A stretch of 64,000 nt of DNA from Candidatus Dormiibacterota bacterium (GCA_019245575.1 JAFARE010000040.1:1-64000); one strand, 5' to 3'; positions 35,264 through 58,313 are shown, counted from the stretch's first letter. The notes: generated by a model from the sequence alone, not told the origin. Made by a program: numbers and translations.

Positions 35264-35318
35264 ACGGCGCGGACGATGCCATCCAAGTCGTTGGCCCATA
35301 CTTCGGCGGACAACTGAA

Positions 35319-35471
35319 TAGCGCCACGGGTGACGGGAAGCCGGTGCAACACCGGCGCTGTCGCGCAACTGTGAGCGGGGAGCCCACGCCAACCGTGCCA
35401 CCTCGGAGTTCCGGGGGAAGGCGGCTGAAGGCGACGATCCGCAAGCCAGGAGACCGATCCGTGGGGCGCCA
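35319..35471 (+). promoter_or_regulatory. Cobalamin (B12) riboswitch
   Basis: All core parts are present in order: GGGAAGCCGGTG, CCGGCGCTGTCGCGCAACTG, TGAGCGGGGAGC, GTGCCACC, GGGGGAAGGC, GACGATCCGCAAGCC and the B12 box AGCCAGGAGACC (35444-35455). The P1 stem pairs GCGCCAC (35321-35327) with GTGG..GGCGC (35461-35469). The gap to the start codon at 35561 is ~90 nt and contains C- and G-rich stretches that could form the expression platform. High B12 should switch off the downstream five-gene operon. A weak promoter, TTGGCC-N17-CTGAAT, lies at 35291-35319. Confidence 0.95.
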
Positions 35472-35560
35472 ACTCCACCCCCGCGCGAGACGGGAGGTCG
35501 GCCTCATGCGGCGAGGACCCTCCGGCGAGGTGGATCGGCGAGCCGCATGGGAGCAGTGGG

Positions 35561-42713: not shown

Positions 42714-43357
42714 GCTGCCGGCGCGGCCTGGGGTGGCACGCACGCCTGCGCGCGCCAGCTGTACGAGCCCGGCGGCAGCGAGCCGCCGAGCGGCGCGCGC
42801 ACGGCGAAGTCGTGATACGCGCCCCACACGATGCTGCCCGTGGCCCGGATCGGCGGGTACACCAGCACCGCGACCACGCTCTGTCCGGGATCGACGTGCA
42901 CGGTGCAGCTCGCATCGCTGCCGTGCAGCGTCAGCACCGCGAGAGGAAACAGCGGGTGGTAGTAGTGCCGCAGCGGTCCCGACGCCGTGCCGTCCGGCGC
43001 GTAGTCACTGGCGATCTGCAGCGCGTTGAGCTGCGGGTCGGAGAACGCCTTGCCGTCGTTGCGCACCACCACTCCCACGAAGGTGAAGCCACCCAGTGAC
43101 GCCAGGTCGTGCAGCCCGGCGACGGCGGGCAGCAGCGCTGCCAGCGCATCCGCCGGCGCTCGCGTGACCATGCGCAGCTCCAGGTGATCGGGGTTGCGGT
43201 AGATGCCGCCGTCCGGGCTCGTGTAGATGCTCACCTCCGCCAGCGCCGCGCCCGCAGCCACCGGCAGGCTGAGCGATGAGCCCACCGCGGCGCCGGGTGA
43301 CGCGCAGGCGGCGAGCAATAGGCCGAACACCGCCACAACGACGAGCCGCGCTCTCAT
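42710..43357 (-). CDS. Putative lipoprotein in the ABC/bd operon
   Basis: 215 residues with a lipobox (VVVAVFGLLLAACAS, Cys near residue 19). The rest is β-rich: LAEVSIYTSPDGGIYRNPDH, LASLGGFTFVGVVVRNDGKAF, HYYHPLFPLAVLTLHGSD, CTVHVDPGQSVVAVLVYPP. No family recognised. ATG 43357 overlaps the permease gene by 4 nt, so it probably acts with the ABC transporter on the outer face. Confidence 0.68.
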   Translation of the reverse strand: MRARLVVVAVFGLLLAACASPGAAVGSSLSLPVAAGAALAEVSIYTSPDGGIYRNPDHLELRMVTRAPADALAALLPAVAGLHDLASLGGFTFVGVVVRNDGKAFSDPQLNALQIASDYAPDGTASGPLRHYYHPLFPLAVLTLHGSDASCTVHVDPGQSVVAVLVYPPIRATGSIVWGAYHDFAVRAPLGGSLPPGSYSWRAQACVPPQAAPAA

Positions 43358-44118
43358 CGGCTGCGTAACACGGCGCGCGCGAACACGGCCGGCAGCATGA
43401 GCGCGACCAACGCCGTGCATGCGGCAGCGATGAGTATCGCCACCGCGTCGAAGGCGGGCGAGCCGCCCAGCGCGGCGATGAAGGCGGAATGCAGGTAGCT
43501 GAAGGGATCCGCCTGCGCAACGATCCAGCGCCAGCCGTCGCGCGGGACGCCGGTGAACAGACCGCCGAGGAAGAGCAGCGGCGCGAGCACGATGGCCACG
43601 TCGAGCAGCACCTCGCCCGGACCGCCGCCCAGCGCCGCGACGGCGCTGCCGAGCGCGTTCGCCAGCAGCAACACGGCGAGGACGCTGAGCACGAGCACAG
43701 CACCGTCCACGGTGGACACCGGCGACAGCGCGAGCACGACGACGATCGCCGGCGCCAGCTGCACGGCGTCGACCAGCGCGCCGCCGGCGACCCAGCTCGC
43801 CACCACGCGCCACGCGGGCCTCGGGGTCAGCGCGAGGCGCGTGAGCAGGCCGGACTCGCGCGCGCGCGCCGTTGTCACCGCAGCGCCGATCGCGCCGGTG
43901 ATCGCGCACAGCACGCTGAGCAGCATCCCCGCCCAGAACGTGGGCGCATGGCCCGCCAGCAACGGCACGGTCAGCACCAGCGGGACCGCGAGCTTGATGA
44001 GCAGCGCGCGCGGACGCGCCAGCGTCACGAGGATCTCGCGCGTGAACATCGCGCGCGGCATCACGCGGCGCAGCCGTGGCAGCGCGCTGGTGGCGACGTG
44101 CTGCGACGAGAGTGCCAT
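43354..44118 (-). CDS. ABC-2 type transporter permease
   Basis: 254 residues, six predicted membrane segments; FTREILVTLARPRALLIKLA at the N-terminus and PRDGWRWIVAQADPFSYLHS near the end fit ABC-2 permeases. ABC-2 systems export lipids, polysaccharides, drugs, or (CcmB-type) support cytochrome assembly. Starts on the last base of the ATPase stop codon overlap region, so it is coupled to that gene. Confidence 0.82.
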   Translation of the reverse strand: MALSSQHVATSALPRLRRVMPRAMFTREILVTLARPRALLIKLAVPLVLTVPLLAGHAPTFWAGMLLSVLCAITGAIGAAVTTARARESGLLTRLALTPRPAWRVVASWVAGGALVDAVQLAPAIVVVLALSPVSTVDGAVLVLSVLAVLLLANALGSAVAALGGGPGEVLLDVAIVLAPLLFLGGLFTGVPRDGWRWIVAQADPFSYLHSAFIAALGGSPAFDAVAILIAAACTALVALMLPAVFARAVLRSR

Positions 44119-45059
44119 CAGCGCCCCCCTCCGGACGCAGGCCGGCGCTCGGCTGCGAGGGACCGTCCGGTCAGCATGCGGAAGCTGTCGCTGAGGTCGG
44201 GGCTGTGCAGGCGCAACCCGCGCAGCCGGCCGTTGCCGTCGTCAGCCGCGGCCACCACGGCCGCGAGCGCGCCATGGTGCAGCAGCTCCACCTCCACCGC
44301 GCCGTCGTCGCGCACCACATCTCCGACGCCGGGTATTCGCTGGAGCGCCGTGGCGTCGAAGGACTCCGACACATCGAGGCGCGCGCGGCGCGCGCCGCCC
44401 ACCTCGGCGAGCAGCTCGGCGGGGCGCGCGTCGCGCACCAGCTCCCCGGCGTCGAGGAACACGACGCGGCTGCATGCCGCCGCCACAAAGGAACAGTCGT
44501 TGCTGGCGACGAGCGTGATGTCGCCGTCGGCGGCGCGCGCATCCAGCAGCCGCTGCAACGCCTGCGCGCCGTCGGGGTCGAGGCCGGCCGTCGGCTCGTC
44601 GAGCAGCGCGATGCGCGGCCGGTGCGCCAGCGCCTGCGCGATGGCGAGCCGGCGGCGCATGCCGAACGAGAAAGCGGACACCGGCTCGTCGGCCACGTCC
44701 AGCAGGCTGACGGCATCGAGCGCAGCGCTGACCAGCTGCGGCACCGCAGCGGAGCGCACCCATTGGCCGCACCAGAAGTGCGTGGCCTGCCGTGCCGTGA
44801 GCGCCCCCTCCTCGGCGACAACGTCCGCGGCAAACCCGATGTCGCGGCGAGCCGCGCGGGATGACGCGCGGCCGTTCCAGGTGACGTGGCCGCGCTGCGG
44901 CGTCGCCGCGGTGGCGAGCAGGCGCAGCAGCGTCGTCTTGCCTGCGCCGTTCGGACCCATGAGGGCCACGCATTCGCCCGCCTCGACGCGCAGGCTCACT
45001 GGGCCCACACCGCGCCCGTTGCGATAGCGGCGCTGCACCGCACGTGCTTCGACGTTCAT
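44118..45059 (-). CDS. ABC transporter ATP-binding protein
   Basis: 313 residues: GPNGAGKTT (Walker A), SAFSFGMRRRLAIAQAL (signature, diverged: SFGMRRR), IALLDEPTAGLD (Walker B), and a ~85-residue C-terminal extension typical of DrrA/CcmA-like exporters. Partner of the ABC-2 permease. ATG 45059 overlaps the receiver-domain gene by 4 nt. Confidence 0.88.
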   Translation of the reverse strand: MNVEARAVQRRYRNGRGVGPVSLRVEAGECVALMGPNGAGKTTLLRLLATAATPQRGHVTWNGRASSRAARRDIGFAADVVAEEGALTARQATHFWCGQWVRSAAVPQLVSAALDAVSLLDVADEPVSAFSFGMRRRLAIAQALAHRPRIALLDEPTAGLDPDGAQALQRLLDARAADGDITLVASNDCSFVAAACSRVVFLDAGELVRDARPAELLAEVGGARRARLDVSESFDATALQRIPGVGDVVRDDGAVEVELLHHGALAAVVAAADDGNGRLRGLRLHSPDLSDSFRMLTGRSLAAERRPASGGGR

Positions 45060-45409
45060 GCGCGCACCATCGCCAGCAGCGCGCTGACCTGTGCGGCCAC
45101 ATCGGTGGGCTTGAACGGCAGGCGCACCAGGCCGGCCGCGCCCTCCTGCATCGCGGCGTGCGCACCCGCCTCGTCACGAGCCTCGATCATGGCGAACCAG
45201 CCGTGCGCCGGCGCCTCGGGCGGCCGGGGTGCGACGCGCGTATCCAGCAGGAGCACGTCTGCGCCACCGTCACGCATTGCGCCGGCCAGCGCGCCCGCAT
45301 CGCGCACGCACGTGACTTCATGGCCCTCGCGGCGCAGCTTGTGCTCCAGGATGCGCGCCACCATCGGCTCCTCGTGGGCGATGAGCACGCGCGGACGCAT
45401 CTCAGGCAT
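45056..45409 (-). CDS. Stand-alone response-regulator receiver-like protein (degenerate)
   Basis: 117 residues with the CheY fold: RPRVLIAHEEPMVARILEHKL, the phospho-acceptor-like Asp in ADVLLLDTR, and the conserved Lys in LVRLPFKPTD. The acidic pair that binds Mg is HEEP instead of the usual DD, and the Thr/Ser switch strand is not obvious. No output domain or kinase is adjacent. It may act as a non-phosphorylated protein-interaction module. Start ATG 45409 (alternative ATG 45400). Confidence 0.7.
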   Translation of the reverse strand: MPEMRPRVLIAHEEPMVARILEHKLRREGHEVTCVRDAGALAGAMRDGGADVLLLDTRVAPRPPEAPAHGWFAMIEARDEAGAHAAMQEGAAGLVRLPFKPTDVAAQVSALLAMVRA

Positions 45410-45806
45410 CGCCGCCGTACCACATGCGCGGCCAGCCCGCCTCGTCCATGTCGCAGACGGCGCACATCGGCCCGGCCACGCCCTCATCCTCGAGCACGCG
45501 GCGCGCTTCGTACGGCGTCATGCGCGCGGTGGCCACCAGGTCGTTGCCACGCAGCTCGATCTCCCAGCCCAGACCCTCGAGCACGGCTGCGACGAACGCG
45601 ACGAGGTCGAGGCGATGACGCAGCGCCTCGCTCACCGCCGACGTTGCGGCTGACGCCGTCACCTCCGCGTGGCCGGTGTCGATGGCCTCGTTGCTGCTCT
45701 CCTCCAGCTCGTACAGGCGGCGCATCCAGCGCGGCCACGGCGGTTTCAGCGCGCGCGCGAGCTCTTCACCGGGCTCGTCGAAGAGGTGCAGCCGCACCGC
45801 CGTCAT
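45402..45806 (-). CDS. Hypothetical protein, 134 aa, C-terminal CxxC
   Basis: Begins MTAVRLHLFDEPGEELARA, followed by a helical middle and LVATARMTPYEARRVLEDEG; ends with GPMCAVCDMDEAGWPRMWYG. The CxxC near the C-terminus could bind metal or be redox-active. No family recognised. Lies between the CydA-like gene and the receiver gene; overlaps the latter by 8 nt. Confidence 0.6.
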   Translation of the reverse strand: MTAVRLHLFDEPGEELARALKPPWPRWMRRLYELEESSNEAIDTGHAEVTASAATSAVSEALRHRLDLVAFVAAVLEGLGWEIELRGNDLVATARMTPYEARRVLEDEGVAGPMCAVCDMDEAGWPRMWYGGDA

Positions 45807-45847: not shown

Positions 45848-47290
45848 TCACCGGTCGGTCACCCCGCTGCTGCCGCCGACGGCGCTGGGCTGATTGTTGA
45901 GGATCTGCTGGTTGTTGATCGTCAGCTCGCCGCTGATCAGGTACGGCTGGCGCGCGTGCTCGCGGATCACGCCCATCACCATCATCATCACGCTCACGGT
46001 GGCGCCCAGCCCGATCAGGATCACCGCGCTGCGCCTGCCGACGCGTCCGGCCTGCAGCTCGTCGCGGCTGTTGGCGCGCATGTACGCCGTGAGCGACCAG
46101 AGCGCGAGCATCACCATGGCGAACAGCGCGCCGACCTTGTACGGGATGAAGTTGCCGAACGGGTTGAGCAGGCCGCCCTGCCAGAAGGGACGGTCGAGGT
46201 GGGCGGTCACCACGTCGGCGTACGTCGGCGCGAACCATGCCGGCAGCGCGGCGAAGAGCGTGACGAACGCGAGCATCGCGGTCACCACCCCCTGGCGCCG
46301 GGCATGCGGCGCACCCGAGGCCTTCATGCGGCGCCAGAAGTAGGCCGCGCCCAGGGTGAAGATGCTGCCCAGCAGCGTGATCTGCACGAGGAACACGTTG
46401 CTGAGGTCGCCGAACATCATGTTGAACCACGCGGGGTATGCGTGCAGCTGGATCTCCTTGGCGTACTCGTAGCCGACCCACGGCTGCAGCAGCGTCAGGC
46501 CGACGGCGAACACCGCGCCCCACTGCCCCGCCCAGTCCCAGTACCGCGCCTCGCGCGCCTCCGGCGGCTCGCTGCCCGCCGCGGACGCGGCCATCGCGCC
46601 CACGGACGCCGCGGCCGCCGTCGCCGGCGCGGTGCGCCGCACGGTCTCGAGGCGGCGCGTCACGCGCAGGTACTGCACGCCGCTCACCAGCGCCACCGCC
46701 GCGCCTGCCCAGGCGATGTTGCCCAGCGTGCGGTGCGCTGTGAGCACGATCGACGTCGGGTTCAGGATCAGGTTCAGGATGTTCACGTCGCCGCCGTTGG
46801 GCGTGACCATGAACGAGGCAACGATGTCGATGAAGAACATCTGCCACCACTGCACGACGTTGAGCAGGATCAGCATGCCCAGCCGCGCCTTCCGGTGCTC
46901 ACCCAGGCGCTGCCAGTTGGCGTAGAGGGTATAGATGAGGACGATCTCGAAGAGGAACGTGATGCCCTCGAGGAAGAAGACCCAGAAGGTGATCTGCTGC
47001 AGCGAGACGAAGAACTTGCCCCACACGCCGGTCAGCACGAACATCACGAAGAAGATGGCCAGCGCCGAGCCGAAGCCGAAGATGAAGATGCTGCTCTTGA
47101 TGAGGCCGTGCGCCAGGCGGTCGTGGCGCTCGTCGCGGTTGCGCCGCACCAGCGAGACGGTCTCGCTGACGATGGCCATGGTGGATGCGCCGATCAGGAA
47201 GGCGGCGATCTGGATGTGCACCAGCGCCACCACCGCCACCAGCAGGCCGTTGGTGAGCAGGTTGCCGCCAATCTGCGTCGAGGTGCTCAC
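45848..47290 (-). CDS. Cytochrome bd oxidase subunit I-like protein (CydA-like 1)
   Basis: 480 residues, about nine membrane segments. H25 (VALVHIQIAAFLIG) matches the haem b595 ligand H19 of E. coli CydA; E108 in TFWVFFLEGI matches E107; H186 in IVLTAHRTLGN matches the b558 ligand H186. By eye E99 is replaced by Ile, and the Met ligand of b558 is not found in the YKVGALFAMVML segment. REHARQPYLI near the end matches the conserved GRQPW-type region. No CydB follows. It is coupled by overlap with the cytochrome b gene. It resembles the two-CydA subgroup of the bd superfamily. Confidence 0.82.
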   Translation of the reverse strand: MSTSTQIGGNLLTNGLLVAVVALVHIQIAAFLIGASTMAIVSETVSLVRRNRDERHDRLAHGLIKSSIFIFGFGSALAIFFVMFVLTGVWGKFFVSLQQITFWVFFLEGITFLFEIVLIYTLYANWQRLGEHRKARLGMLILLNVVQWWQMFFIDIVASFMVTPNGGDVNILNLILNPTSIVLTAHRTLGNIAWAGAAVALVSGVQYLRVTRRLETVRRTAPATAAAASVGAMAASAAGSEPPEAREARYWDWAGQWGAVFAVGLTLLQPWVGYEYAKEIQLHAYPAWFNMMFGDLSNVFLVQITLLGSIFTLGAAYFWRRMKASGAPHARRQGVVTAMLAFVTLFAALPAWFAPTYADVVTAHLDRPFWQGGLLNPFGNFIPYKVGALFAMVMLALWSLTAYMRANSRDELQAGRVGRRSAVILIGLGATVSVMMMVMGVIREHARQPYLISGELTINNQQILNNQPSAVGGSSGVTDR

Positions 47291-48489
47291 AGGTTGTAGA
47301 GCCGGTTGACGCCGAGCACGGCGAGGAAGATGACGGCGAAGATCATGAACAGGGCGGGCACGAGCACCTCGGGCCGGCGCGTGGGCCGGCGTTCACGTGA
47401 GCGGTCCAGGAATGGGAGCAGGAAGAACGCCGCGGCGCCGGCCAGCACGATGACGAAGATGCCCACAGCGATCAGCGGGTCGTGCGGCGTGAGCACCAGG
47501 AACTGGTCCAGCGGCAGGTAGAACCACTCCGGCGTGGGCACATAGGTGAGCGTGGCCGAGTCCGCCGGCTCGTCCAGCGTGGCCCCGAAGATCAGCCCCG
47601 CGATGAAGATGATCGCCACCAGGCCCACGCTCACCGCGGTGTCCTTGAACAGCTGGTCGGGGAAGAAGTCGACGGTGCGCTTGGGCGCCGCGTAGCGCCG
47701 CTCGATCCGCTTTGTGGGATAGGGCGGCTCCGCGTTGCGGATGCGCTCGCCGATCTCCTTGTCGGGGTCGTCCGTCTCCGTGTTGTAGTTGACCCACGCG
47801 CCGAACTCGCCGTGACGCCGCAGCAGGTAGAGGTGCGCGCCGATGAACGCGAAGAGCACGAAGGGCAGCACCCACACGTGCAGCGCGAACGTGCGGGTCA
47901 GCGTGATCGGGCCGACGAAGGTGCCGCCCCGCCAGAGCTGGCGCAGCCCGTCGCCGATCAGCGGGAAGTAGTGGAGGATGTTGGTGACGACGGTCGCCGT
48001 CCAGTAGGCGGCGTTGTCCCAGGGCAGCATCGCACCGGTGATCGCCAGCCCCAGCACGAGGAAGAACAGCAGCGCGCCGCTCATCCAGTTGAGCTCGCGC
48101 GGCCGCTTGTAGCTCGCGCTGAGGAAGGTGCGCAGCGCGTGCAGGCCGATGACCAGGATGAGCGTGTACGCGCCCCACAGGTGCAGGCCGCGCACCCAGT
48201 TGCCGAAGGCGTCCTGCGCCTGCAGGAAGTGCAGGCTCTGCCATGCCTCCTCCACCGAGGGCACGTAGTCGAGGAGCAGGAAGATCCCGCTGAAGAGCTG
48301 CAGCAGGATGAGCACCAGCGTGGCGCTGCCCAGCGTGTACGCCCAGCCGCCGCTGTGCGGCACCGCCTCGTAGAGGCCCTTGTGCACCAGCTGCGTGATG
48401 CCGGTGCGCTCGTCGAACCAGCGATAGGCGTTGCGCAGCGGCACCGTCACCACGCGGCTGGGGTGGAGCAGCGTCCTAAACGCGTTCAT
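47287..48489 (-). CDS. Cytochrome b subunit of a bc1/b6f-type complex
   Basis: 400 residues. Four haem-ligand His lie in helices B and D: LHLWGAYTLILVIGLHALR and FALHVWVLPFVLFAFIGAHL, giving H-x13-H and H-x14-H-type spacing. PTPEWFYLP is the PEWY quinol-site motif (PEWF variant). Length suggests fused N- and C-terminal domains but with fewer C-terminal helices than mitochondrial cytochrome b. It would oxidise quinol with the Rieske protein next door. Start ATG 48489 overlaps the Rieske gene by 14 nt. Confidence 0.9.
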   Translation of the reverse strand: MNAFRTLLHPSRVVTVPLRNAYRWFDERTGITQLVHKGLYEAVPHSGGWAYTLGSATLVLILLQLFSGIFLLLDYVPSVEEAWQSLHFLQAQDAFGNWVRGLHLWGAYTLILVIGLHALRTFLSASYKRPRELNWMSGALLFFLVLGLAITGAMLPWDNAAYWTATVVTNILHYFPLIGDGLRQLWRGGTFVGPITLTRTFALHVWVLPFVLFAFIGAHLYLLRRHGEFGAWVNYNTETDDPDKEIGERIRNAEPPYPTKRIERRYAAPKRTVDFFPDQLFKDTAVSVGLVAIIFIAGLIFGATLDEPADSATLTYVPTPEWFYLPLDQFLVLTPHDPLIAVGIFVIVLAGAAAFFLLPFLDRSRERRPTRRPEVLVPALFMIFAVIFLAVLGVNRLYNL

Positions 48490-48976
48490 CGAGCTGGTTC
48501 TGCACCTCGAGGACGTGCTGCCCGGTGACCGGGTCGAGGGTGATGCGGTGCACCCACTGCGGTAGCGGCGCGGGCGGCGGCCCGCCGATGTTCACGCCGT
48601 CGATGTCGTACAGGCCGCCGTGGCAGGGGCAGAGGAACTGGCCCAGCCGCGGCTCCCAGTGCACGTCGCACTGCATGTGCGAGCAGATGTTGCTCAGCAC
48701 GCGCGTGGTGCCGTCCGACTTGCGCACGATGTACACCACGCGCCGCTCCGAGGGCACCGGCCAGCCCTGCTCGTTGGGCATGTCGACGTAGCGCACGGTG
48801 GGTGTGCCCACCGGCACCTGGTCGATGGCCCCGACGGTGAGCCACGCGATGCGCTTCTGCGCGAAGAGCGGGCTGAGCAGGAAGCCGAGCGCGGGGATGC
48901 TGAGCATCACGCCGATGGCGCCGGCGCCGAGGCCGGTCATGCGGATCAGGAACTGACGCCGCGAGACGTCGCGCAT
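48476..48976 (-). CDS. Rieske iron-sulfur protein
   Basis: 166 residues. Twin-arginine signal-anchor SRRQFLIRMTGLGAGAIG, then the 2Fe-2S domain with CSHMQC and CPCHGG, supplying Cys-His and Cys-His ligands plus the disulfide Cys pair, and YDIDG. Accepts electrons from quinol in bc/b6f complexes. No cytochrome c1 or f gene is present in the cluster, so the next acceptor is unclear; the CydA-like subunits are candidates. ATG 48976 shares a base with the preceding stop. Confidence 0.93.
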   Translation of the reverse strand: MRDVSRRQFLIRMTGLGAGAIGVMLSIPALGFLLSPLFAQKRIAWLTVGAIDQVPVGTPTVRYVDMPNEQGWPVPSERRVVYIVRKSDGTTRVLSNICSHMQCDVHWEPRLGQFLCPCHGGLYDIDGVNIGGPPPAPLPQWVHRITLDPVTGQHVLEVQNQLDERV

Positions 48977-49236
48977 CAGCCGGTCCCCCCGGTGCGGATG
49001 AGCCCCACCGCCGCGGCGATGAGCATGCCGATGAGGGCAAGCATCGAGAACATCGAGGCGGCGACGATCAGCGTGCCCGCCGCGCGGTCGGTGCGGTAGA
49101 TGCGCACCCCGCCGCGCACGGCCCAGGCGCAGCCGACGACCACGAGCAGCACCATCGCGGCGACGAGAATCGACAGGTACCACGCGGCCTGGAACTGCGC
49201 GGCTCGGATCTGCGCGAGCACGGCCGCGCCGCTCAC
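48976..49236 (-). CDS. Small two-helix membrane protein of the bd/Rieske cluster
   Basis: 86 residues with hydrophobic segments at about 18-40 (AWYLSILVAAMVLLVVVGCAW) and 55-80. No haem-binding CxxCH. Probably an accessory subunit. Overlaps the CydA-like 2 gene by 4 nt. Confidence 0.7.
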   Translation of the reverse strand: MSGAAVLAQIRAAQFQAAWYLSILVAAMVLLVVVGCAWAVRGGVRIYRTDRAAGTLIVAASMFSMLALIGMLIAAAVGLIRTGGTG

Positions 49237-50483
49237 GGGTACAGGCTCCCAGACGGCGTGAACTGCTGCTGCGCCTGCGCCTGCGTCAGCTCGCCGTACA
49301 CCGCATAGCTGCCGCGCGCGCTCTCCTTGATGACTCCCATCAGCAGCGCGGTGAGCAGGGAGAACGCTCCCACGGTCACCAGCGCGCGCCGCCCGAGCGT
49401 CAGCGCTGACGCGGCGATGTCCCCCGCGGGGATCGGGCGCCGGTGCCAGCGCAGCGCGAGGTGCACCGCCGTCACGACGAGCGCCGCGCCCAGACCGACG
49501 AAGCGCACCGTCTCAGCGCCGCTCGGCAGCACGCTCGACGGCAGCGCGGCCACCACCATGCCGGCCAGCGACACGCCCACGGCGACGAGGCCGATGGTGT
49601 CGCGTCCCTCGCCGTTCGCGGAGCCGCGCTGCTCCGCGATCAGCGCCACGTTGCCGCCCACCAGCACCACGGCGACGAACGCCTCCTGCAGCACCATGAG
49701 CCATGCCGTGCTGCCGCTCACGAGGTTGTTGAAGAAGCCCTGCTGGGAGTTGTTGAGCACGAGCATCAGCGCGTATCCCTCAACCGGCATCAGCAGCGCG
49801 GTCACGAGGCCGATGCGCAGGTTGACCCACGCCGCCCATGCCTGGAAGCCGCGCTCCTCGCCATCCGCGCTGCGGTGCAGCTTGATCGCCGCATAGCCGG
49901 CCAGGAACAGCGCGGTCCACGAGACGTTACCGATCAGGCGGTGGATGAGCAGGGGGATGTAGGGCGGATCGAGCGCGCTCTCCAGCAAACCACCGTGAAA
50001 CGGCGTGATGAGGTACGCGTCCAGGCTCACGATGAGCACCACGAACAGCGTCTGCACCAGCGCGACCGCCGCGCCGAGGCTCGCGTGAGCGCGCGGGCCG
50101 ATCCGTCCGAAGCTGTTGCGGTACACGGCGAGCATGGGCGTGAGCACGAGGAACAGGCCGAACGCGAACGCGACGAGCGGGATGAAGACGTTGATCAGCC
50201 GCCCGAACTCGTTGCCCCACAGGCCGATCAGCAGCACGACGGCGAACACGGCGAAGGTCGCCCCCAGGCTGAACACGAGGTAGTAGCTGTTGGCTGCGGC
50301 GCGCGCGTAGCGCGCGGCGCGTGCGTCGCCCGTGAGAGCGGCGCGCCACTCCATCGCCGCGGCGAGAGTGATCACGCCGACGGAGAACTCCGCGATGGCG
50401 ATGTGCAGCAGGAAGAGGATGGCCACCGGCAGGCTGCTGCCCAGCGCGGGGAACTGCGGCGGCGTTACCTGGAGGCCGAGCAT
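49233..50483 (-). CDS. Cytochrome bd oxidase subunit I-like protein (CydA-like 2, CydA')
   Basis: 416 residues, about nine membrane segments. H27 (FLLHIAIAEFSVGV) and H181 (LLIHRLIGNVSW) match the H19 and H186 ligands of CydA; the Glu residues for haem d/b595 are not found in the corresponding helix (NVFIPLVAFAFGLFL). The C-terminus KESARGSYAVYGEL resembles the REHARQPYLISGEL end of CydA-like 1, which supports common ancestry. Likely takes the place of CydB in a heterodimer with CydA-like 1. Confidence 0.78.
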   Translation of the reverse strand: MLGLQVTPPQFPALGSSLPVAILFLLHIAIAEFSVGVITLAAAMEWRAALTGDARAARYARAAANSYYLVFSLGATFAVFAVVLLIGLWGNEFGRLINVFIPLVAFAFGLFLVLTPMLAVYRNSFGRIGPRAHASLGAAVALVQTLFVVLIVSLDAYLITPFHGGLLESALDPPYIPLLIHRLIGNVSWTALFLAGYAAIKLHRSADGEERGFQAWAAWVNLRIGLVTALLMPVEGYALMLVLNNSQQGFFNNLVSGSTAWLMVLQEAFVAVVLVGGNVALIAEQRGSANGEGRDTIGLVAVGVSLAGMVVAALPSSVLPSGAETVRFVGLGAALVVTAVHLALRWHRRPIPAGDIAASALTLGRRALVTVGAFSLLTALLMGVIKESARGSYAVYGELTQAQAQQQFTPSGSLYP

Positions 50484-50493
50484 CTGCGCGGCG

Positions 50494-52485
50494 TCAGCCG
50501 TCCGCAGCAGCGGCGGGCGCCGCCGCGTCCGTCTCGCGCTTCCCGAGCGCGGTGACCACCGGTGCGGTCACCTCGTTGAGGCGGCCGCTGCTCGACGCCG
50601 GCGGCATCTTCGTCCCGTTGCCGCCGGACGCCTCCATCCGCGCGCGCGCCTCGGCGATCCCCGCCTCGACGTGCAGCAGCGTCACCTCACTGGCGCGCAG
50701 CGCGGTGGCGAGCCGCTCCACCTGCTCCGCGGCGAGGTTGCGCAGAAAGCCGGCGGGGATGCGCTCGATGCGCTCCACCGCCTCGTCCGACCAGGGCAGG
50801 CGATGACGCTGGTCCACCTGCGGCCCGGTGTGCGCCTCGGGTCCGAGCGGCGCGCGGTGCGGCCCCGCCTGCGCGTCGAGTGCATCCAGCTCCGGCCGCA
50901 CGAACGGCTCCGCGATCTCAACGGTGATGGCGGGCAGGCGCCGCGTGCGCGCCGTCTTCTCCACCATCGCCTTGACGCGCCTCCGCAGATACCCGGCGGG
51001 CAGCTGCTGCAGCAGCCGGCGCGCCTCCATCGTCCAGCCCAGCTTCTGGCCATCGAAGTCGGCGGTGGCGCCGTCGCCCTCGGCGCGGGCGTCGCGCATC
51101 AAGGCCGCCACATCCAGCGGCTCGAAGGTCGCGCCGTCTGCGCCGCACACCGGGCACTGCGCCGGCTGTGCCGTGCGTGCTGCGTATCCGCATGTGCGGC
51201 ACAGCGCGCGCGCCTCGTCCGCCGCGGGCTCGTCGAGCATGGCCCGCTCCGCCCCGTCGAGTGACGCTGTCACCTCGTGGATGCGGCGCATCACACGCCG
51301 GTGCGGCATCAGGTCGTCGAGTGCGGAGTCGACGTCCCCCGACGAGACGACGCTGTGCCCGCGCTCCGTGCACCAGCGGAGCACGGCGGTGCGCGCCAGC
51401 CCGCGCGCGCCGGCGGGCACGTGCTCCAGGCGCGCCTCCGCCTCCGGCGTCCACGCCACTGCCTGCTCGGCGCGCATGTCGATCGGCGGCACGTACGTCG
51501 AGCTGCTGAGCAGCACGTTGCAGGGCGCGTCGCGCAGCACGTGCTCCGCATTGCTGCCGATGTCCATGCCATCGGGCGAGTGCACGCCGATGCGGCCGCA
51601 CACCAGCAGCCACGGCTCGCGCTCACGCGCGAAGCGGAGGACGCGCTCGAAGGCCTTGCCGTCGAGCAGCGTGATGCCGAGCCCCACGCCCTCCTCCGCC
51701 GCGGTGGCCTGCGCCACGCGCAGGTGCGACTCGTAGATCTTCGCCAGCCCGGTGTCGATGATCTCCTCGTGCAGCGCCTCCTGCTCCTTGAAGCGGAACA
51801 CCTTCGACGCCTTCTCCGAGAGCACGTCGACGATGCCGTTGAACACCGCGTAGTGCAGGTACGGGTCGTACACCGCCACCGCCTCCACCCGCTTGCGCAG
51901 CGCGCGGCCGATCGCGATCGCGGTGCGCAGCCCGCCGAAGGACTGTGGCGACCCGTCGATCGCCACCAGGATGTCGCCGTCCAGCGCGGCCTCTCCGGTG
52001 CGCCGCACCACCAGCGTGTCGCGCCGCATCCGCCGCACGACGCGGTCCGTGACGCTGCCCAGCCGCGATTCGCGCACCGCACCCGTCCCCAGCGCGCCCA
52101 TCACCACGAGGTCGGGACCGGTCTCCTCGATGTCGGCGACCAGCTCCTCCCAGTTGCGGCCGTCGCGCATGCGCGCCTCGAAGGGGATCTCGCGCTCCAT
52201 GCAGCGGAAGCGCATGACGTCGGTGTAGCTGTCGCTGATGAGCTGCAGCCCGGTGGTGATCAGGCTGTCGTGGATGCGCCGCTGACGCAGCAGCTCCGCC
52301 TCGTCCTGGTACTCCTCCGGGAGCGTGTACTCCATCTGCTTGAACCGGTAGTCGTGCATGCGTCCCGCGTAGACGTGCATGCCGATGCAGCGCGCGTCGA
52401 ACGCCTCGGCCAGGGCGAGCGCGACCGTGGTGGCCGCGTCCGAGTGCTCGGAGTTGTCAAGCGGGACGTAGATGCTTCGGAACAT
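50494..52485 (-). CDS. Universal-stress-protein tandem fused to PCP_red and rubredoxin-like domains
   Basis: 663 residues, order: USP domain 1 (about 1-162, VYVPLDNSEHS-type start, VMGALGTGAVRESRLGSV), USP domain 2 (170-332, ILVAIDGSPQSFGGLR), PCP_red-like helical motif (344-392, WTPEAEARLEHVPAGARG), a rubredoxin-like centre CRTCG/CPVCG (Cys429, 432, 444, 447), and two more PCP_red-like motifs (484-528 and 564-612). PCP_red is the small C-terminal domain of light-independent protochlorophyllide reductase. This combination is unusual and, as first gene of the hybrid bd/Rieske operon, may regulate or feed that complex. Good ribosome-binding site (GGGAG) before ATG 52485. Confidence 0.78.
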   Translation of the reverse strand: MFRSIYVPLDNSEHSDAATTVALALAEAFDARCIGMHVYAGRMHDYRFKQMEYTLPEEYQDEAELLRQRRIHDSLITTGLQLISDSYTDVMRFRCMEREIPFEARMRDGRNWEELVADIEETGPDLVVMGALGTGAVRESRLGSVTDRVVRRMRRDTLVVRRTGEAALDGDILVAIDGSPQSFGGLRTAIAIGRALRKRVEAVAVYDPYLHYAVFNGIVDVLSEKASKVFRFKEQEALHEEIIDTGLAKIYESHLRVAQATAAEEGVGLGITLLDGKAFERVLRFAREREPWLLVCGRIGVHSPDGMDIGSNAEHVLRDAPCNVLLSSSTYVPPIDMRAEQAVAWTPEAEARLEHVPAGARGLARTAVLRWCTERGHSVVSSGDVDSALDDLMPHRRVMRRIHEVTASLDGAERAMLDEPAADEARALCRTCGYAARTAQPAQCPVCGADGATFEPLDVAALMRDARAEGDGATADFDGQKLGWTMEARRLLQQLPAGYLRRRVKAMVEKTARTRRLPAITVEIAEPFVRPELDALDAQAGPHRAPLGPEAHTGPQVDQRHRLPWSDEAVERIERIPAGFLRNLAAEQVERLATALRASEVTLLHVEAGIAEARARMEASGGNGTKMPPASSSGRLNEVTAPVVTALGKRETDAAAPAAAADG

Positions 52486-52563
52486 CGCTCCCAGCCGAGC
52501 CCTCCCATGATTCCGCCACGCAGGATGTTAGCGCGGCTGCCCCTTTTCCCCCGGTGCCCGCAT

Positions 52564-52581
52564 GACGACAAACGTGTCGTC
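52564..52581. promoter_or_regulatory. Perfect inverted repeat between the divergent USP/bd operon and PCP_red gene
   Basis: GACGACA-AACG-TGTCGTC: perfect 7-bp arms and a 4-nt spacer. A -10-like TACGAT (plus strand) starts 2 nt after it, so a bound regulator would block the PCP_red gene promoter and possibly the minus-strand operon. Candidate operator for the respiratory cluster. The regulator itself is not in the window. Confidence 0.5.
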
Positions 52582-52612
52582 TACGATGGTATGTCCGCCA
52601 ACACAGGGGAGT

Positions 52613-53311
52613 GTGAGTCGATTGGCCGACGAGGACCAGCCGCGCTGTCCGTTTCCGCACGACAGCGCCACGTCTGACAAGACGGGCGGCCGCGACGAGC
52701 GGTGGACGGAGGAGGCGCGAAAGCTCGCCGCCGAGCGGGGGCACGCGCATGCGGCGTTCAGCCACCTCGACGCGGATCGCGCCCAGCGCATGGCAGCGGG
52801 CGCGGTCGAGTCGCGAGCGGCCAGCCGCGAGGTGGCGCAGATCGACGCGGCCTTCGTCGAGCGCGTCGGGCGCAAGATGGGATACGGCCATCCGCTGAGC
52901 GAGCGCACGGGCACGCTGCACTTCACGTGGACGCCCGAGGCCGAGGCCCGGCTTCAGCAGGTGCCCGAGTTCTGCCGCGAGCTGACGCGCTGGCGCGTGG
53001 AGTGGACGGCGCACAAGCAGAACCTCGGCACCACCATAACGCCCGACATCATGGACGTGAAATACGACATGTGGGGCGAGGTCTCACACGCGATCGTGCA
53101 GCGCCACGAGAGTGATGTCGAGTGGACCGACGCGGCGCGGCAGCGCCTGGCCGGGATCCCCGACTTCGTGCGCGGCCAGGTGATGGAGTCGGTGGAGGGC
53201 AACGCGCGCCGGATGGGTCAGAGCGTGGTCGATGACGACGTCATCGACGCGACCATCCAGCGCTGGAGCGAGACCGGCGACTTCCACGAAGGGAAGTACG
53301 GCTTCCGCTGA
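52613..53311 (+). CDS. PCP_red-domain protein divergent from the hybrid respiratory operon
   Basis: About 232 residues. Three PCP_red-like motifs: WTEEARKLAAERGHAHAAF (partial), WTPEAEARLQQVPEFCRE and WTDAARQRLAGIPDFVRGQ, the last followed by VDDDVIDATIQRWSE, the family's closing helix. Same domain as in the facing USP protein. CPFPH near the N-terminus has one Cys. Start is uncertain: GTG 52613 or TTG 52622 after GGGGAG (52607-52612); ATG 52562 would put the inverted repeat and -10 inside the gene. Confidence 0.72.
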   Translation: MSRLADEDQPRCPFPHDSATSDKTGGRDERWTEEARKLAAERGHAHAAFSHLDADRAQRMAAGAVESRAASREVAQIDAAFVERVGRKMGYGHPLSERTGTLHFTWTPEAEARLQQVPEFCRELTRWRVEWTAHKQNLGTTITPDIMDVKYDMWGEVSHAIVQRHESDVEWTDAARQRLAGIPDFVRGQVMESVEGNARRMGQSVVDDDVIDATIQRWSETGDFHEGKYGFR

Positions 53312-53322
53312 GCACCGGGTGG

Positions 53323-53748
53323 TCAGCCGCGCGGAACGACGACCTCCAGGCCTTCGAAGCGCAGAAAATCGCGATCGAACGAAGTCAGCGTGGCACGATG
53401 CGCAAAAGCAAGGGTAGCGAGGTGCGCATCATTCACCAGACTCCCGGCCGTCCCTGACGCCATCAGCAGCTGTCGCAGTTTGCCGAGGTGGCCCGGACCG
53501 GGCTCAATGACGCGCGCCGTTGGTTGGTCGAGCCATTCGTCGACCAGGCCGCACGCGCGATCCGCGCTGATCGGAGTGCGAAAGGCGCCACTTGTCGCAA
53601 TGCGGATGAACCCGAGCAGCACGACCCACCCGAATCCAACGATCTCCGCCCCGGACAGTGCGCGTTCCAACCAGGTACGCGCGGCCGCGTGGTGAGGATC
53701 GTCGGCGTTGACTGCGTAGAGCAATACGTTGGTATCCACGATCGTCAC
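53323..53748 (-). CDS. VapC-family PIN toxin
   Basis: 141 residues with PIN acidic residues in VDTNVLLYAVN, SLVNDAHLATLA and TSFDRDF. Subgroup features (TIVDTNVLLYAVN, FGWVVLLGFIRIAT) match the TA_VapC-type RNases. Follows its antitoxin by 5 nt. Convergent with the PCP_red gene. Confidence 0.85.
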   Translation of the reverse strand: MTIVDTNVLLYAVNADDPHHAAARTWLERALSGAEIVGFGWVVLLGFIRIATSGAFRTPISADRACGLVDEWLDQPTARVIEPGPGHLGKLRQLLMASGTAGSLVNDAHLATLAFAHRATLTSFDRDFLRFEGLEVVVPRG

Positions 53749-53753
53749 GGCGG

Positions 53754-54011
53754 CTAGCGCCCCTCTCGCATCTTCGCGAGAATCGCCTCGTCTTCCATCT
53801 CGGCTGCGAGGCGGAGCGCGTGCTGCAGCGGCACCAATGGTGCCCCCATGGAATGCGGCGCGAGGCGATACGGCGGGCGGCCCTCATCGCCTGCGGACAG
53901 GCCTCGCCGAAGACCTTCGTTGACAGCCGCTTTCAATCCCAGGCCACGGCGCTCCATGACTCGTTTCAGCAGAGCCTCGACATCTGGGTCCAGCGTGATC
54001 GTGGTGCGCAT
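53754..54011 (-). CDS. VapB-family antitoxin (ribbon-helix-helix)
   Basis: 85 residues; MRTTITLDPDVEALLKRVM is a typical RHH N-terminus, the C-terminal part should bind the toxin. ATG 54011 fits the family; an in-frame ATG at 54023 would add four residues. A perfect inverted repeat is 12 nt upstream. Confidence 0.82.
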   Translation of the reverse strand: MRTTITLDPDVEALLKRVMERRGLGLKAAVNEGLRRGLSAGDEGRPPYRLAPHSMGAPLVPLQHALRLAAEMEDEAILAKMREGR

Positions 54012-54023
54012 GGTGAGCATCAT

Positions 54024-57702: not shown

Positions 57703-57909
57703 GTGCGAAAGACATCCGTGGCCATCGACGAAGGGCTGGCGCGCCAGGCGGGTGAGCTGCTGGGCACCTGCACTCTCAAGGAAACCATCGATAGCGCTCT
57801 GAGAGAGGTTGTCGCCGCCGACGCACGCCGCCGGTTTGTGGACCGGCTTCGCGACATGAGGGGTATGGACCTCGACCAGCCGGACGTTATGGCCGGCGCG
57901 TGGCGCTGA
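57703..57909 (+). CDS. VapB-type antitoxin, 68 aa
   Basis: RKTSVAIDEGLARQAGELLG with LKETIDSALREVVAADARR is the ribbon-helix-helix pattern of DUF2191-type VapB antitoxins. GTG 57703. Overlaps the toxin gene by 10 nt. Confidence 0.85.
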   Translation: MRKTSVAIDEGLARQAGELLGTCTLKETIDSALREVVAADARRRFVDRLRDMRGMDLDQPDVMAGAWR

Positions 57910-58313
57910 GAGCCACCCACCTCGCCGATACCAGCGCCCTCGCACGGCGGCAGCACCCAGCGTTCGCGACAGTGTTGGAACCGCTGCTGCTCGAAGGGCG
58001 AGTGGCGACGTGCTCGCTCATAGATCTGGAACTCCTGTACAGCGCACGTGGAAAGCGTGACTTTGAAGAGATTGCAAACGAACGCGCGGGCTTCGAACGA
58101 GCTCCAATCCTTCAAGCGGACTTCGACCGCGCCGTCCACGTGATGTCGGAGCTGGCCGCGACAAGCCGCCACCGGATCGCGCTACCAGACCTGATAATCG
58201 CCGCCGTGGCTGAACGCGTTGGGCTGATCGTGCTTCATGAAGACGCCGACTTCGAGCGCATCGCGAGGGTCACGGGACAGCCGACACAACGGCTCACCAC
58301 AGGCGGGAAGTGA
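57900..58313 (+). CDS. VapC-type PIN toxin
   Basis: 137 residues; PIN acidic residues in LADTSALAR, SLIDLELLYSAR, ALPDLIIAAVAE and LHEDADFERIA. Its stop overlaps the tyrS start by 4 nt (GTGA), an unusual direct coupling of a toxin gene with an essential tRNA synthetase gene. Confidence 0.87.
   Translation: MALRATHLADTSALARRQHPAFATVLEPLLLEGRVATCSLIDLELLYSARGKRDFEEIANERAGFERAPILQADFDRAVHVMSELAATSRHRIALPDLIIAAVAERVGLIVLHEDADFERIARVTGQPTQRLTTGGK

Follow-up and report, generated by a model that had tools for sequence, protein, structure and literature searches.

Gene content of the locus

The window under study, that is, the whole stretch of 64,000 nucleotides that was analysed, lies on contig 39 of a 2.6 Mb Candidatus Dormibacterota metagenome-assembled genome (MAG), which is 89.6% complete. 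A respiratory gene cluster is found on its minus strand, and the genes of the cluster, together with those following it, are given below from the upstream end.

50494-52485, minus strand: protein with a USP domain, a rubredoxin-like zinc ribbon and a PCP_red domain (Pfam, neighbourhood comparison); accessory at most
49233-50483, minus strand: CydA2, subunit I-like protein of the bd superfamily (Pfam, profile, alignment, model); probable non-catalytic partner
48976-49236, minus strand: small two-helix membrane protein of 86 aa, weakly conserved
48476-48976, minus strand: Rieske [2Fe-2S] protein; ligands intact (CSHMQC...CPCHG), one helix at the N-terminus
47287-48489, minus strand: cytochrome b of 400 aa, b6 and subunit IV fused
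45848-47290, minus strand: CydA1, subunit I-like protein of the bd superfamily (profile, alignment, model); probable catalytic subunit
45402-45806, minus strand: down1, small conserved protein downstream of CydA1 (Dormibacterota loci)
45056-45487, minus strand: response-regulator-like protein (receiver similarity only, below the Pfam cut-off)
44118-45059, minus strand: ABC transporter ATPase
43354-44118, minus strand: ABC-2 type permease, partner of the ABC ATPase

An earlier note on this DNA had described seven consecutive, mostly overlapping genes. Their positions and overlap were confirmed, all on the minus strand, with four of the five junctions overlapping by 1-14 bases and a 10-base gap separating USP from CydA2, but the span was found to hold six genes rather than seven. 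The operon probably extends into the last four genes listed, from down1 to the ABC-2 permease, which move with the cluster in relatives of the same family (f1); the real start of the response-regulator-like protein probably lies downstream of the listed one. The ABC ATPase is located downstream of the cluster in f1 and between the USP and CydA2 genes in Chloroflexi loci, and the ATPase/permease pair (43354-45059, minus strand) is cluster-linked in two lineages at different positions; a possible role for this pair is that of an assembly or haem-related transporter. Additionally, the two-helix protein occupies the same place in most Dormibacterota loci and in some Chloroflexi loci. No match to CydB (PF02322) was obtained in the window's own genome, the MAG being about 90% complete, and no CydB gene was seen in the operon.

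The USP gene lies upstream of the cluster in family f1 and in Chloroflexi (CF) loci. However, it was not detected by neighbourhood comparison beside the clusters of family f2 and Rubrobacter, and it is therefore not considered a core part. Participation of its PCP_red domain in chlorophyll synthesis was rejected, as only the small domain is present. Two divergent PCP_red genes occur here (50494-52485, minus strand, and 52562-53311, plus strand), both without the rest of light-independent protochlorophyllide reductase subunit B, and such domains may be the explanation for the reports of 'BchB' in Rubrobacteria (PMC7901476). Elsewhere in the window, two small gene pairs (53323-54023, minus strand, and 57703-58313, plus strand) resemble PIN-domain toxin/antitoxin modules by eye, and a cobalamin riboswitch (35311-35476, plus strand; Rfam RF00174, 94.7 bits) is found about 3 kb before ABC-transporter ORFs.

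The two CydA-like subunits and the Rieske/cytochrome b pair

CydA2 was recognized by the Pfam model Cyt_bd_oxida_I with 42 bits, and no Pfam model matched CydA1. Single-sequence phmmer searches of either protein against the PDB returned no match, and profiles were needed. The profile of CydA1 relatives matched the solved CydA structure 5doq with an E-value of 5.7e-12 and that of CydA2 relatives matched it with 2.8e-16, and the two profiles aligned with each other at 2e-73 (hhalign). The AlphaFold2 models reached pLDDT values of 88.7 (CydA1) and 90.1 (CydA2), and the ten best Foldseek matches against the PDB were CydA chains for each of the two models. In a tree including canonical CydA, the CydA1 sequences formed one group (support 83) and the CydA2 sequences another (81), opposite the canonical set (100). 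Profile, fold and tree thus place both proteins in the cytochrome bd superfamily, in agreement with the earlier note, which had proposed two CydA-like subunits. Most simply, the two would derive from one old duplication and represent an ancient paralogue pair.

Haem ligands were evaluated by aligning 61 CydA1 and 60 CydA2 sequences with E. coli CydA and ten canonical relatives. In the window CydA1, residues H25, E108, E115, H186, K385 and E444 correspond to H19, E99, E107, H186, R391 and E445 of E. coli, respectively. A conserved Met had been considered as the E445 equivalent, and was rejected because the alignment with E. coli and the ten canonical CydA sequences gives E444. Equivalents of H19, E99, H186, E445 and R448 were each verified in 61/61 CydA1 sequences, the E107 position is mostly occupied by E or Q, and the R391 position by K in all 61; equivalents of M393, W441, K252 and E257 are absent. 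In the window CydA2, H27, H181 and E387 correspond to H19, H186 and E445, with no counterpart of E99, E107 or M393. Across the CydA2 group, H19 is kept in 60/60 sequences, H186 in 59/60 and E445 in 29/60, and Ala is found at the E99 position. The quinol residues K252/E257 and the b558 ligand M393 have been lost in both paralogue groups, and on our reading of the AlphaFold2 models against the alignment, two membrane helices occupy the Q-loop position in both. Neither protein of the window contains a cysteine, and thus neither would carry a covalent haem.

Since CydA1 keeps the active-site ligands and CydA2 is degraded, the catalytic role appears to belong to CydA1 and that of structural partner to CydA2, as far as residue conservation indicates. 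The suggestion that the haems might be split between the two proteins was not sustained, given that CydA1 alone keeps H19, E99 and E445 (61/61) together with H186. The refuting outcome envisaged in the earlier note, in which neither protein would keep a haem ligand, failed outright.

Regarding the electron-donating side, the Rieske ligand motif is intact in 61/61 sequences and the Qo motif PEWF is present in 65 of 67 cytochromes b. In the window cytochrome b, the histidine pairs for the b haems are H103/H117 and H204/H219, with the b6-type spacing 13/14. As in bc1 and b6f complexes, therefore, Rieske ligands, two bis-His b haems and the Qo PEW motif are all in place, and in Rubrobacter cytochrome b is even split into b6 and subunit IV. 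Unlike those complexes, the operon has no c-type exit cytochrome (c1 or f), as none of its genes encodes a protein with a CxxCH motif; together with the missing CydB, this upholds what the earlier note had claimed. Moreover, the window cytochrome b lacks cysteine, and therefore would carry no covalent haem (haem cn).

Conservation of the cluster and respiratory genes of its carriers

CydA1 or a paralogue is present in 36/50 genomes of the order. A scan of a species collection yielded 69 loci in Dormibacterota, soil 'Chloroflexi' MAGs, Rubrobacter and other Actinomycetota, and one 'Bacillota' MAG; the carriers come from soil and hot springs and span three phyla. The earlier note had proposed to look for the same gene order in other genomes, and the order CydA2-Rieske-cytochrome b-CydA1 on a single strand was indeed found in every one of the 60 loci that carry all four, always with the Rieske and cytochrome b genes between the two CydA genes; the remaining 9 of the 69 loci end at contig edges, and their visible part is consistent with the same order. 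In the 60 complete loci, the median gaps were 5 bases between Rieske and cytochrome b and 11 bases between cytochrome b and CydA1. Chance neighbourhood was rejected on the basis of this fixed order. Pairwise distances in the four gene trees were correlated with r 0.91-0.99 (56 loci), and within Rubrobacter with r 0.60-0.81, all 500 permutations being lower. Therefore, these congruent distances indicated that the module is inherited as a unit. Neither CydB nor a c-type cytochrome, whose presence in the operon of close relatives the earlier note had treated as contrary evidence, was found there. A gene for a monohaem c-type lipoprotein (CLDCH; L117:11332-11937) is located directly after CydA1 at one distant locus, the only such locus noticed.

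The capacity to produce c-type cytochromes was assessed, in genomes most of which are incomplete MAGs, through PF01578 (cytochrome-c assembly), a family shared by the two c-haem maturation systems common in bacteria. This domain was absent from 18/18 genomes of family f2, each with a cluster match, from seven cluster-bearing f1 genomes (G011, G013-G016, G023 and G024) and from 21/21 Rubrobacter-type genomes. Altogether, c-haem maturation is missing from at least 46 genomes with the cluster, and PF13442 c-type cytochromes are also absent in all but two of them: one among the f2 and the seven f1 genomes, and one among the Rubrobacter-type genomes (absent in 20/21). The f2 genomes retain haem-copper oxidases. 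In one of them (G033), a COX2 gene with the CuA motif CYEFCGVGHDQM was observed (L140:6807-7676), although neither a c-type cytochrome nor c maturation could be found in that genome; the donor to this CuA COX2 is perhaps a cupredoxin.

Among the 21 Rubrobacter-type genomes, COX1 was absent from 19 and CydB was not found in 12 (8-9 have CydB), and in 11 neither a haem-copper oxidase (COX1) nor CydB was found. The complete genome of R. marinus has no c maturation, PF13442 or COX1, and possesses CydAB. Gaps in MAGs as the cause of the missing CydB or cytochrome c1 were rejected, since many genomes agree, including, for c maturation, COX1 and PF13442, this complete one, despite its CydAB. In the isolate R. 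taiwanensis, COX1, CydB, PF01578 and PF13442 are all absent, and the only PF01654 matches are the Rieske/cytochrome b-linked cluster and one orphan CydA1 (L155:6564-7910), which has no CydA2, Rieske or cytochrome b gene adjoining. Thus, in this cultured aerobe, the cluster holds the sole oxygen-reductase-family genes found, the orphan CydA1 apart, in a search that covered COX1, CydB and PF01654. Meier et al. reported that Rubrobacteria have no cytochrome c oxidase and depend on 'cytochrome bd', with no mention of Rieske (PMC7901476).

Other carriers possess c-type machinery, with maturation genes in 14 of 15 Chloroflexi-type carriers tested. The window's own genome encodes a c-type cytochrome, maturation genes including a CcsA-like gene, and a haem-copper oxidase. 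A second respiratory region on contig 22 of this genome (L138:8227-14599) encodes Rieske and cytochrome b together with COX1 and a protein in which CxxCH occurs three times, and therefore the organism may have two quinol-oxidising branches.

Proposed mechanism, alternatives and relation to known systems

It is somewhat probable, in our estimation, that the products of the operon form a single membrane complex, a bd-type (OR-N-like CydAA') quinol:O2 oxidoreductase that is coupled to a Q cycle, contains no c-type haem and transfers electrons directly from Rieske to CydA. Cytochrome b and Rieske would oxidise (mena)quinol at Qo, as in b6f/bc complexes, with bifurcation of the electrons, one to the b haems and the other to Rieske. 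The Rieske cluster would then reduce a haem of the CydA-like heterodimer directly, probably the one that H186 of CydA1 ligates at the b558 position. The electron would pass from there to the two haems held by the H19/E445/E99 equivalents of the same subunit, where O2 would be reduced, and CydA2 would stand in for CydB. The earlier note had already suggested electron flow from Rieske/cytochrome b to the CydA pair without cytochrome c, and this idea has been strengthened by the fixed order across three phyla, the agreeing gene trees and the dozens of carriers without c-haem maturation, almost none with c-type domains. Complex formation, direct transfer, haem content, O2 as the substrate and a proton yield above that of plain bd are what we infer from these observations. 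The fuller proposition, in which a single c-haem-free complex with direct transfer to a CydA haem conserves more energy than plain bd and, in certain aerobic Rubrobacteria (R. taiwanensis among them), is the sole terminal oxidase, is put forward tentatively, at slightly less than an even chance. Several observations count against these readings: the loss of M393, the second ligand of the entry haem b558, the c-type lipoprotein adjoining CydA1 at L117, the c-type machinery and haem-copper oxidase of some carriers, and the CuA-type COX2 of f2 genomes.

The main rival is that a soluble carrier, either a cupredoxin or, where present, a c-type cytochrome, links Rieske/cytochrome b to the CydA-like pair, as proposed for the cytochrome-c-oxidising OR-N enzymes of Nitrospira and Nitrospinota (PMC10839748). 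The L117 lipoprotein is in line with such a carrier, and a c-type donor is possible in carriers such as the window's organism, due to the c-type cytochrome, maturation genes (the CcsA-like one included) and haem-copper oxidase encoded there. Moreover, the CuA-type COX2 of f2, found without a c-type cytochrome, hints at copper proteins, and therefore a copper carrier reducible by Rieske may exist. However, the 46 or more genomes devoid of c-haem maturation, nearly all also devoid of c-type domains, and the failure of any carrier gene to recur in the operon make a diffusible link unlikely overall. It is more doubtful still that the CydA-like pair forms the electron exit of a bc-like complex, replacing cytochrome c1/f, or its proton- or quinone-handling unit, with O2 being reduced by another enzyme. 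The lost M393 would fit such a role, as would the haem-copper oxidases still present in f2 and the CydB of 8-9 Rubrobacter-type genomes, but the ligands of the O2 site do not vary among CydA1 sequences, and neither a haem-copper oxidase nor CydB was found in 11 of the 21 Rubrobacter-type genomes. Finally, a Rieske/b complex and a CydAA' oxidase that work independently and share only the operon might be imagined from the separate Rieske/b cluster of the window's genome and from the orphan CydA1 of R. taiwanensis. This we regard as very improbable, since Rieske and cytochrome b always lie between the CydA genes, in the same order in 60/60 loci, their trees are congruent with those of CydA, and the CydA proteins lack a quinol site of their own.

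Comparison with characterized enzymes clarifies what is shared by the proposed complex. It differs from canonical CydAB in having no CydB partner and from quinol-oxidising bd enzymes (qOR, including archaeal CydAA') in having lost K252/E257 and M393. The archaeal CydAA' of Caldivirga is reported (Murali 2021) to be a heterodimer of two CydA paralogues that oxidises quinol itself; the present pair would likewise be a paralogue heterodimer, but its quinol residues are lost and a Rieske/cytochrome b module is linked to it. In Sulfolobus SoxM and SoxABCD, Rieske and cytochrome b are joined to an O2 reductase without a c-type cytochrome; the proposed complex would have the same c-free layout, whereas the reductase is haem-copper in Sulfolobus and bd-type here. 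A weak SoxC profile match was also recorded.

Two reports describe the OR-N CydAA' enzymes of Nitrospirota/Nitrospinota as bd-superfamily members with two CydA-like subunits, no CydB and no canonical quinol site (PMC10839748, PMC12342949). Compared with the published descriptions of OR-N, the present proteins are similar in their paired CydA paralogues without a c-type domain, absent quinol site and replacement of the Q-loop by membrane helices, two in number here versus three in the bd-like protein of Nitrospina (PMC3578206). In Nitrospirales, the genes for OR-N5 CydAA' immediately follow those for ACIII, which oxidises quinol (PMC12342949), whereas here the partner is Rieske/cytochrome b, placed between the CydA genes. 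Furthermore, OR-N enzymes are thought to oxidise cytochrome c (PMC10839748), whereas many carriers here have no c-haem maturation. In N. moscoviensis, Rieske and cytochrome b genes are clustered with two bd-like oxidase genes, and a complex III/bd-like respiratory supercomplex was suggested; that region further encodes multiple c-type cytochromes and a candidate NXR gamma (PMC6606698), neither of which occurs in the single tight operon described here. Therefore, the OR-N CydAA' enzymes and the Nitrospira bc/bd-like supercomplex proposal are already known. Three features appear to be new: that a CydA-Rieske-b-CydA operon of fixed order recurs across three phyla, that it occurs in organisms where no c-type machinery could be detected, and that in one cultured species no other genes of an oxygen-reductase family were found. 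No description of the cluster was found in the literature on Dormibacterota or on Rubrobacter with Rieske/bd, in a search largely of papers outside subscription, and the arrangement may already be mentioned in Murali, Gennis & Hemp 2021, the closest primary paper.

Plain bd oxidases, which oxidise quinol themselves, are regarded as low-yield. If the proposed direct transfer is correct, a bd-type oxygen reductase fed by Rieske/cytochrome b would gain a Q cycle and have no need of cytochrome c; we know of no earlier demonstration of such a respiratory layout. The idea is testable because one cultured aerobe, R. taiwanensis, has the cluster as its only oxygen-reductase genes found. The proposal also bears on the electron donor of the OR-N branch of the bd superfamily and, if true, would explain how Rubrobacteria without cytochrome c oxidase (PMC7901476) respire.
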